From assembly GCA_003003615.1 (NCBI GenBank), contig PVWD01000011.1:1-49353 (forward strand): DNA of 49,353 bases. Direction: 5' to 3'. Every line of letters begins with the position of its first letter. Position 1 is the stretch's first letter. The DNA is from a filamentous cyanobacterium CCP2 (GTDB taxonomy: Bacteria; Cyanobacteriota; Cyanobacteriia; Elainellales; Elainellaceae). Under the pieces are notes generated by a model. That model was not told the DNA's origin. It saw only the letters and a program-made list of their open reading frames with translations, and ran no database searches. Positions 17,829 to 32,780 of the stretch are shown here, in pieces. The translations under genes were made by a program, and so were the position numbers.

Positions 17829-20800
17829 TTATGACTGAAGCGGAAACCGATCGCCTAAAAACTTTTCTGCCTCAGAGCGATCGTGTACTTTTCCGTCCAG
17901 CGTAGCGGCTAGCAAGGCTTCTAGCATCGGCTTAAATTGCCGTCCGGGTTGGTAGCCCAATGCCTTCAGGTCGTTGCCGTTCAAAGGTGGTTTAACAAAG
18001 GCGAGGCGTGTTAAGTATTGCCAGATTTGTCGCCGAATCGGGCGTGGCACAATCACAGCCAGTAAGGTGAGGGTAGGAAGGTCGTAAGAGTTGAGCAATT
18101 GGTAGATTTGGCTGGGACGATCGCACTCAGGTAGATGGGCTGTAAGGTGTTGGTGGATGGCATCCAGATTTTGCAGCCGTTGGATGCTGTCGGACGGGAG
18201 TTGGAGATTTTCTGCCACCTTGACTCGATCGCCCACTGTTAAGTTTGTCAGCAGCACTTCTAGCAGGGTGAGCCAGTGTTCAACTTGGTGAGTTGTATCA
18301 AACTGTTTGAGCCACCGATCCACCAAGCGCAGTTGCCACCAAAGGCGATCGGTCAGTTGTAAATCGGAATGGATGCAGCAAATTGCCCCTAGATTGTCTA
18401 GTAGACGAATCGCCTGGAACCAATAGGGAGCCTCTAAAATGTAGCGTAACTCCTGCTTTAAGCGGGTTTGCAGTGCTGGAAATTTCTCCATCTCAGACTG
18501 AATCCGGTGATACACGCCACTGGCGATCGCATGGCGAATATAGCCCTCCGTTTGGGGATCAATTTGAAAGCCCAGCCGCACCGCAAAGCGAACCGCACGA
18601 TAAATTCGCGTCGGGTCTTCAATGAAGCTGTTGGCATGCAGCACCCGAACATATCCTTCCTGTAAATCCAGAAGTCCCCCAAAAAAGTCCAGAACCTCCC
18701 CAGTGCGAGGAGCCGTCAGCCGGATTGCCATGGCGTTAATTGTGAAGTCTCGACGGTAAAGATCTTGGCGAATGGAGCTGGCTTCCACCTCTGGGTTTGC
18801 CGCCGGATAGGGATAAAATTCAGTGCGAGCAGTGGCAATGTCAATCCAGAGGGAATTCAAGTTTGGATCGTTATGCCAGGTCAGGGCTGCCGTTTGGAAC
18901 CGTCCATGAACTTGTAACCGAACAGACGGATACTGCTGCTGCAATGCCCGTGCCAACTCCACTCCCGCCGCCTGATCAGCCGCCCGATGGAACCCATCCA
19001 CCACCAAGTCAATATCCGGTATGAACAAAGCAGACGATTCATCTGAACCACTCTCAAAAGCCGACAAGTTAGACAAGAACAAATCCCGCACAGCCCCACC
19101 CACCAGATAAAGCTGCCAACCTCGCTCTTCTGCCTGTTTTGCCGCCGCCATCAACACATCCCACAACGTTGGAGCTAGCCGATCGCGCAACACCTGCCGC
19201 ACCACCCCAGGTAACACACAATAATCCCGCCAATGCTTACTCCTCTCTCCTCTCTCCTCTCTCCTCCCTCCTCTCTCCTCTTTCCCTTTCCCTGCCCCCT
19301 GCTCCCCGATCGCCTTCTCCCGATGCAACTGCCGCAGCACATCCGTCCGGGTGACAATTCCCACAAGCTCTCCCTGATCCAGCACTGGAAGCCGTCCAAT
19401 GTCATAGGTCATCATCAAGGATTCAATTTCGGTTAAGGGTGTCTCAGGTGCGATCGTTTTCAAGTTCGTGGTCATGTAGCCTTTCACGCGGGCATGGCTG
19501 AAGCCGTGATGTAGCGCAATATCCAAGTCCCGACGAGAAATAATGCCAACCAAGCCTCCCTCCTCGTCCACCACCGATAGCCCGGAGTGCCCATAGCGCA
19601 GCAAAATTCGTTGGGCTTCCTGGATCGTCGTATCTGGGCGAATGGTGCGAACCGGAGAAGACATTAGCTCCCTGGCAACCGGAGGATGGGGAATCTGCGA
19701 TCTCAACTGGTCTAACAACTCCGCCAGCGTTTGCTCTGGGTCAACCCCTCTAGTTGTCAAAGCCGCCGCCCTCGGATGCCCTCCTCCCCCAAACGGTTCA
19801 AACAGTTCTCCCAAATCAATTCCCTCATGGGATTGGTCAAACCGCCATTCTCCCCGGCTATGGGAACGCCCAATCACCGTCAGCCGTTCTTCCCCTCCCC
19901 CCACGGCATAGCGTGCTGCCAACAGCAACACATCTGCCTCTGTCAAACTCAACAACCGAGAGGCTAAATTCGACAGTCCTGGAATATACTCTTCAACCGA
20001 CAGCAGCACCCAAGAAACTTGATACCCATGAACCGTCTCCGTCTGCAACTCATCCAAGGCAACCGTCAGCAAGTCCTGCATCGTTGGAGACAGCCCCGGT
20101 TCCACATATTCCGCGATCGCCTGCAAACTTGCCCCTTGTGCCATTAGCCAGGTTAAGGCAGCTGCATCTCGCACCGTAGCATGGTCATAGGTCAGGGAAC
20201 CTGTATCAACATGAATCCCCAATGCCATGACAGTGGCTTCAGCCGACGTGAGGGAGTAGGAAATGGGGAGTGGGGAATGGGAAGTGGAGGGAGAGACACG
20301 CAATTTCGCATCTGTACGGGAGTGAGAAGGCAAAGCATTTGGTGAAACAGGATTTGGAGCAGGGTTCTGGGCTTGAGCATCAGAATGAATCGACATTTGC
20401 TGTTCAGCATGGCGATCACCAGGCTCCTCTTCTCGATCCTCACGCCCTTCTATCCCCTTTTCTATTCCCCACTCTCCACTCTCCCTTTCCATTAACTGCT
20501 CTACAATCAGCGTTGTTACCGCTCCCACTGGCTCAACCCGCTTTTGGGTCGCTGGAATATCTCCTTCAGCGTCTAAATGATGGTCGTAAGCAGTGATTTC
20601 CACATGGGGTAAATTCAACCACTCAGCAGCTTTCCCCAATCGATCGCGCCACTGAGTATCCACCACAATCAGCGATCGGATGTGGTCTGGATTCACCGAT
20701 CGGCGTTCAATCAAGGCAAACTCATCCCGATGAAGTGCCAAAAAATCCCGCACGGTTGGATGCGCTCCCCCCGTCAGCACAATCCTTGCCCCTGGATGTA

Positions 20801-20870
20801 AGCGGGACAACCCAACAGCAGCACCCAGCGTATCAAAGTCGGCAGTGGTATGGCAGAGGATGAGATCCAT
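17829..20870 (-). CDS. DHH phosphoesterase-CBS pair-tRNA nucleotidyltransferase fusion
   Basis: A 1013-residue three-part protein. A DHH/DHHA1 phosphoesterase comes first ([11 protein letters not shown] near 8-18, DHH 96-98, [10 protein letters not shown] 361-370), then two CBS domains (about 400-452 and 462-515), then a poly(A) polymerase/CCA-adding-type domain (GGAVRDLFL 591-599, metal site DIDLVVDG with D619 and D621, [11 protein letters not shown], and [17 protein letters not shown]). This layout is known in cyanobacteria and implies tRNA 3'-end synthesis or repair, perhaps with nucleotide sensing by CBS. Two stretches are alien: residues about 127-208 inside the DHH domain and 517-547 after CBS2. 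Their DNA is made of STRR heptamers and a GAGAC palindrome, yet the frame stays open. Confidence 0.93.
19241..19292. repeat. STRR heptamer array inside the coding sequence
   Basis: About seven 7-bp units of TCCTCTC/TCCTCCC/TCCCTTT type. Read on the minus strand it encodes the arginine/glutamate-rich linker [16 protein letters not shown] between CBS2 and the nucleotidyltransferase. Confidence 0.75.
20247..20492. repeat. Composite repeat insertion inside the DHH domain coding sequence
   Basis: Contains two STRR blocks (20252-20292, units such as GGAGTGG and GGAATGG; and 20466-20490, units such as CCCCACT and CTCCACT) and a GAGAC palindrome at 20291-20320 (GAGAGACACGCAATTTCGCA). It adds about 82 residues between VTTLIVEQL and [16 protein letters not shown], blocks that I expect to be nearly adjacent in relatives. 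Confidence 0.7.
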
Positions 20871-20876
20871 AGAAGG

Positions 20877-20897
20877 GGGGAGTGGGGAATAGGGTAG
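20877..20897. repeat. STRR heptamers at the 5' side of the fusion gene
   Basis: Units GGGGAGT, GGGGAAT and AGGGTAG lie seven bases outside the start codon of the DHH-CBS-nucleotidyltransferase gene, so the leader carries the same repeats that entered its coding sequence. A diverged GAGAC-type palindrome follows (about 20893-20930). Confidence 0.6.
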
Positions 20898-21073
20898 AAA
20901 CGCAAAATTTTGCAGCTAGGCGTTCGTATGGGAGCGAAGAATCAGAAGAGGGATGAAGACATCCTTCTCCAATGCGTGTCACTTTCTGATAAGTTCTAAA
21001 TCAGGGGTTGTTTAAGGGCAAGCACTTTGGCCTGCTCAGGTTGTTAAACCCCTTGCTGTATTGGGAGGAAACG

Positions 21074-32430: not shown

Positions 32431-32502
32431 GTTAGGAATAGGTAATGGGTAATAGGGAGTGGGGAGTGGAGAGTGGGGAATGAGAATAATGGAGAATGGA
32501 GA
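32431..32502. repeat. STRR heptamer array
   Basis: About ten 7-bp units such as GTAATGG, GTGGGGA, GTGGAGA and GTGGGGA lie in the spacer upstream of the DUF2062 gene. This is the same repeat type found in the coding insertions at 19241-19292 and 20252-20292. Confidence 0.7.
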
Positions 32503-32610
32503 GAAGTTATAACATTAATCAATGATCGATCGATGGGCAATTGAGATAACAAAGCCGAAAAGAGAAGCCGAAAGGAGAATTACACAACAGTCTTGCTAGG
32601 CTCCATAACT

Positions 32611-32746
32611 GTAAATTAACCCAATGTGCAACTTGTTCCCACCTCTTGTAGGATGGGCATCTTGCTCGTCCAGACTCAGCAGGAAAGATGCCTGCGCTAC
32701 GGAAAATCAGAAATTTCAGGCTGTAAGTTGCACATCGCGTAAATTA
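32611..32746. repeat. MITE-like element: dispersed repeat copy 4 within an 11-bp perfect inverted repeat
   Basis: ATGTGCAACTT (32624-32634) and AAGTTGCACAT (32725-32735) are perfect inverted copies around a GGCATCTTGC core (from 32652) and its mirrored half AGGAAAGATGCCTGCGCTAC. Outside them GTAAATTA occurs directly repeated (32611-32618 and 32739-32746), possibly a target duplication, although gaps of 5 and 3 bp separate it from the inverted repeats. Confidence 0.55.
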
Positions 32747-32751
32747 CCTAT

Positions 32752-32780
32752 CCCCTTATTCCCCACTCCCCACTCCCTCC
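32752..32780. repeat. STRR heptamers directly upstream of the mnmE start
   Basis: Units TCCCCTT, ATTCCCC, ACTCCCC and ACTCCCT end one base before the mnmE ATG and leave no Shine-Dalgarno sequence. Confidence 0.75.

Follow-up and report, generated by a model that had tools for sequence, protein, structure and literature searches.

A segment built from dispersed intergenic repeats lies in frame within the DHH domain of a putative tRNA nucleotidyltransferase fusion protein encoded in the window, i.e. the entire stretch of 49,353 nucleotides from the filamentous cyanobacterium CCP2 that was analysed here. Probably, the repeats settled in a permissive turn of the domain and were kept as a disordered loop. 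Repeats of several kinds that are translated within genes have already been published, namely coding REPs, Rickettsia palindromic elements (RPEs) and intragenic heptamers; the repeat-derived segment in a tRNA nucleotidyltransferase fusion is a new case. It provides a clean cyanobacterial example of intergenic repeats turned into protein, in which orthologues fix the edges of the insert and the predicted fold shows why it is tolerated.

The host gene and its product

Relatives of the 1013-residue fusion are encoded in all 40 genomes searched. Pfam matched two CBS domains (the end of the second being set from the alignment with orthologues), the PolyA_pol head domain and DHHA1; the DHH domain (PF01368) scored just below its cut-off, at 21.4 versus 28.1 bits. 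By far the best NCBIfam family is that of A-adding tRNA nucleotidyltransferases (NF041569), although the 462 bits reached fall well short of the curated cut-off of 1440 bits. The fusion, a putative enzyme for adding A to tRNA that ends in CC, is presumably made and active. The same genome harbours a second, shorter nucleotidyltransferase-like gene (a 472-aa frame on contig C354).

The initial annotation had stressed that the frame is kept in a protein expected to be essential. The frame is indeed intact, but essentiality carries little weight for the first insert (insert 1). The DHH module is missing in several relatives of the same family; G022, G041 and G045 have no match to the DHH part, and G022 encodes a CBS-nucleotidyltransferase frame of 595 aa (C12:52330-54063) that starts near the CBS domains. 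The argument therefore fits the C-terminal enzyme rather than the domain that holds insert 1.

Outside the gene, immediately before its start codon (20876..20935, + strand), there are further heptamers, with a match at 20880-20893, and a decayed palindrome-like stretch recognised by eye.

Table 1. Features of the fusion gene and its inserts (positions in the window), and heptamer arrays in other genes (approximate positions in the respective stretches).
Feature	Position	Strand	Evidence
DHH-DHHA1-CBS-CBS-nucleotidyltransferase fusion gene	17829..20870	-	1013 codons/1013 aa, intact frame without internal stop
DHH domain, N-terminal part (residues 3-127)	20490..20864	-	Pfam PF01368, E 3.3e-4; 70-83% identity to orthologues
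Insert 1 (~residues 130-205, net +74 residues)	20256..20483	-	Orthologue alignment, loop length, pLDDT
G-rich (coding strand) heptamer arm	20455..20485	-	Heptamer-pair matches at 20461-20481
Middle of insert 1	20321..20454	-	Own-genome search with 20245-20490: only the two ends matched
Palindrome AGACACGCAATTTCGCATCT, then GTACGGG on + strand	20294..20313	.	1 mismatch to pattern; 64 genome copies
C-rich (coding strand) heptamer arm	20254..20290	-	Heptamer-pair matches at 20254-20281; many genome matches
Two CBS domains (residues 399-516)	19323..19676	-	Pfam PF00571, two stretches
Insert 2: six GAGGAGA-type heptamers in linker (residues 531-544)	19239..19280	-	Lag-7 identity, shuffles
Nucleotidyltransferase head domain (residues 587-742)	18645..19112	-	Pfam PF01743, E 3.8e-26
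Coding heptamer arrays in other genes	L122 ~2030-2070; L123 ~2050-2090; L087 ~1500; L124 ~2030		HisZ, NadB, ThiO-ThiG linker, SNF2-like helicase

The insert in the DHH domain

Insert 1 is lacking in 30 of the 31 aligned orthologue sequences, among which two strains are present twice (L039 and L040 repeat L031 and L017). Nearly all orthologues have 19 residues in the stretch from query position 122 to 214; two have 21 and 25, and L010 has 43, versus 93 in the query. Since the length of this turn is fixed at 19 in nearly all others, insert 1 is a true addition. In most of the 40 genomes, the match to the fusion is interrupted at about residues 128 and 206. When the family as a whole was searched with an insert-free query, the match ran through in one piece in most genomes but was split in the window's own genome. 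It is also split, at other places, in G042, G020, G040 and G014, all of which are incomplete or fragmented assemblies. The alignment thus bears out the proposal of an insertion inside the DHH domain, sitting between two helices, and revealed no similar residues in distant orthologues; it also supplied the edges that the initial annotation had suggested fixing in this way, to within a few residues. The size needs correction: about 82 residues had been proposed, and the loop lengths give a net gain of 74.

On the coding strand, insert 1 has a G-rich heptamer arm, followed by some 130 bp of unique DNA, by the palindrome and its GTACGGG tail, and by a C-rich heptamer arm. The middle finds no counterpart elsewhere in the window's own genome when positions 20245-20490 are used as query. 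In this copy the tag of the palindrome has degenerated to GGAG. In comparison with MITEs, the two arms are inverted heptamers able to pair in RNA (z -2.1), and no target-site duplication was recognised by eye at a site whose empty counterpart is too diverged.

Dispersed repeats in the window and the genome

Both components of insert 1 are far more frequent than expected by chance. The window contains 14 heptamer-pair matches and three palindromes, against 0.16 and 0.11 expected from shuffles. Genome-wide, there are 652 three-unit heptamer matches versus 17 for the reversed control, and 64 copies of the 20-bp palindrome (AGAC...GTCT) versus none for the control. Tandem degenerate heptamers in many dispersed copies are what defines STRR sequences, and the arms of insert 1 match such heptamers. 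These counts confirm that insert 1 is made of heptamers and a palindrome otherwise dispersed between genes. The palindrome has a stem of about 10 bp with nearly no loop, many copies bear GTAG and GTAC at their two ends, and elsewhere in the genome it is frequently nested in, or adjoins, heptamers. Elhai reportedly described, in 2008, small dispersed repeats (SDR) of Nostoc, 21-27 nt long and often embedded in heptamer arrays. One further match to the palindrome pattern, in L216, departs from the family, has none of its tags and is probably due to chance.

Neighbouring arrays (no more than 800 bp apart) follow a preferred order: in 11 of 17 pairs a G-rich array precedes a C-rich one, against 4.25 expected at equal chances (binomial 0.0006), and the spacing of such pairs is mostly 100-290 bp. 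Insert 1 shares both features.

G-then-C pairs often enclose an intergenic region, the G-rich array directly following one gene and the C-rich array directly preceding its neighbour (window positions 32436-32775; L108, L062, L198, L086, L057). A further dispersed repeat, containing GGCAGGCAAGATGCCTGCGC, occurs in L062, L198, L057 and L048; it is intergenic, lies beside heptamer arrays, and its copies have up to about 117 bp in common, with 85% identity.

Tolerance of the insert

In an AlphaFold2 model built on a 28-sequence alignment, pLDDT falls below 50 at residues 133-202 and 522-553, while the DHH domain scores 85-96 over its first 130 residues. Predicted helices at 118-131 and 209-223 flank the insert. 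Insert 1 is, by this model, a predicted disordered loop in an otherwise confident domain. Because dN/dS was mostly saturated at synonymous sites, dN alone was compared; in the DHH part it is 0.12-0.24 here versus 0.15-0.25 in an insert-free orthologue. Divergence is thus no faster than without the insert, which argues that the DHH domain is not decaying.

The array in the CBS-nucleotidyltransferase linker

A second insertion of the same repeats had been proposed for the linker before the nucleotidyltransferase. A heptamer array is certainly present there, with a lag-7 identity of 26/28 that was reached by none of 500 shuffles. It contains no palindrome, however, and membership in the heptamer family of the insert 1 arms was not borne out, as its GAGAGGA unit has one substantial match elsewhere in the genome. 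Nor is a net insertion supported, since the linker of 41 residues falls within the range among orthologues (18-42). In relatives this linker holds other arrays, made of heptamers in L010 and L018 and of octamers in L036. Given that the heptamer is nearly private to the linker, local slippage may explain insert 2 better than the spread of a dispersed family.

Other coding arrays and the reading frame

Among 64 distinct exact arrays sampled, about three lie inside real genes, namely those for HisZ and NadB and the linker of a ThiO-ThiG fusion; for palindromes the figure is about 1 in 53. The remaining arrays are outside genes or at contig ends. This survey is based on listed matches and the sequence stretches around them, in an assembly of 528 contigs of which many end in heptamer arrays, so that the sample of arrays is incomplete. 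In addition, an SNF2-like helicase, a relative of DISARM DrmD, contains a degenerate array. The arrays in HisZ and NadB are located where all relatives vary in length. Two apparently intragenic arrays, in L004 and L066, were rejected; they lie upstream of the likely true start.

It follows from about 3 of 64 that coding insertions are rare survivors, a small fraction of all arrays such as would be expected under purifying selection. The description of the repeats as having 'colonised' coding sequence is too strong in the light of these fractions. The view that new stretches of protein have arisen from dispersed repeats finds support in insert 1 and in similar segments of HisZ and NadB. For annotation, this serves as a warning: where proteins of such genomes contain peptides like REWGMGSGESGVGSRE or TPHSPLPTPYS, these are translated repeats and should not be taken for domains.

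It had further been suggested that the lengths of these insertions tend to be translatable. Arrays of three, four, five, six and seven units number 30, 14, 10, 7 and 3, so that multiples of three are not over-represented. By virtue of its composition alone, the C-rich heptamer strand has no stop in any of 201 frames, while on the G-rich strand 41% of frames are open, versus 69% for random windows. Since the openness of the C-rich strand and the removal of broken genes by selection would suffice, no special translatable element is needed, and the keeping of the frame would be explained by such selection.

Comparison with known repeat systems

REPs tagged GTAG or CGTC are short palindromes tagged at one end and occur in bacteria that include cyanobacteria; some are in frame inside genes, with clusters coding for 43-82 residues, and tolerance in loops or linkers has been proposed (PMC3733652). 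The short palindrome described here resembles the GTAG type, being tagged GTAG at one end in many copies. Unlike REPs, the coding insert adds heptamer arms and a unique middle, and set against the stem of 5-13 bp and loop of 2-20 bases given for REPs (PMC3733652, Table 1), the present palindrome has a stem of about 10 bp and almost no loop. As for a link to RAYT/REP transposases, three Y1_Tnp matches are present in the genome; no copy of the palindrome was seen in the surrounding stretches examined, a result that is not final in a draft assembly.

The heptamers are of the same G-rich, dispersed and mostly intergenic kind as those of other cyanobacteria. In Anabaena PCC 7120, 68% of such arrays lie between genes and a sizeable fraction is intragenic (PMC4692102). 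The passages concerned do not trace the translated product, to which the present work adds a comparison of orthologues, a predicted fold and an analysis of frames. Judging by its title, Vioque 1997 deals with STRR arrays inside the RNase P RNA gene of cyanobacteria.

RPEs are selfish-looking repeats found in frame in unrelated conserved proteins, and a working product has been reported for one in guanylate kinase (PMC10969869, PMC2229807). In-frame insertion into conserved protein genes is seen here too. RPEs form families of about 105-150 bp with a conserved coded peptide (PMC10969869, PMC2229807); no single family coding for a conserved peptide was found among the present segments, which differ in strand, frame, sequence and length.

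Origin of the insert

The preferred reading starts from a genome that is rich in STRR-type heptamer arrays and in a short GTAG-tagged palindrome, both mostly intergenic. A composite of the two probably landed in, or grew within, the tight turn between two DHH helices, and it would have survived there because it preserved the frame in its full length, was free of stops and added residues that form a disordered loop and spare the fold. The linker array and those in HisZ, NadB, the ThiO-ThiG fusion and the SNF2-like helicase probably arose in a comparable way at other loops and linkers that tolerate additions, with selection as the presumed filter that leaves in-frame, loop-sited cases only.

The same turn is occupied in G007, the closest relative in the sample for both the fusion protein and HisZ. 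Here, 24 extra residues are encoded by a period-8 array (22/28) with about 40 further matches across the G007 genome; the period in the window's genome is 7. In 25 kb of G007 stretches there are 34 unit pairs of the G007 type and none of the window-genome type, although only the absence of the latter is informative because the stretches were picked for matching the former. Conversely, 427 kb of (overlapping) stretches from the window's genome contain 344 pairs of their own type and four of the G007 type. Each genome's own repeat therefore sits at the same DHH turn, which makes the question of repeated entry at permissive loops testable with a small number of additional genomes.

Rather than two entries, there may have been one older insertion in the common ancestor with G007, later overwritten by each genome's own repeat. 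The close relationship, the shared turn and a weak similarity between the two inserts speak for this. The protein similarity is not significant (shuffle fraction 0.08), however, the DNA similarity (0.03) is located in the C-rich repeats themselves, and the repeat units and their period differ; an ancestral insertion is a serious possibility, if a somewhat doubtful one. A separate question is whether the insert arrived as a mobile whole, with G-rich and C-rich arrays as the inverted ends of a mini-transposon-like cassette that is normally intergenic. The G-then-C order and spacing, shared by insert 1, and the pairing of its arms would suit such a cassette. Yet array pairs usually bracket an intergenic region, and the preference that heptamers reportedly show for one strand with respect to gene ends (PMC4692102) would yield the same order; moreover, the middles do not form one family, target-site duplications were not recognised and most arrays are single. 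As the published strand preference may explain the order, the cassette is kept only as a rival, and an unlikely one. It is similarly improbable that inverted-order arrays mark the ends of a real insertion unit and that units of each genome's active repeat enter the same permissive turn independently across lineages. If true, this would point to a process of repeat formation that returns to particular loops of proteins, rather than to one selfish family.

Two further explanations were considered. Changes in heptamer number could throw the gene out of frame and so silence the enzyme, as a phase-variable switch; seven is not a multiple of three, so one unit gained or lost breaks the frame, six near-identical units stand in the linker, and heptamer phase variation is known for HMW1A of Haemophilus (PMC8262952). 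But the arrays are short and imperfect, the gene is that of a housekeeping enzyme, and orthologue linkers hold other arrays that are all in frame, all of which makes a switch very improbable. Mis-assembly at repeats, which might have joined the insert into the gene, has in its favour the many contig ends at heptamer arrays in this fragmented assembly. It is just as hard to credit, given that the frame is kept over 1013 codons, that the middle of the insert is unique and its arms are shorter than 40 bp, and that similar in-frame arrays occur in other genes of the genome and in the linkers of relatives.
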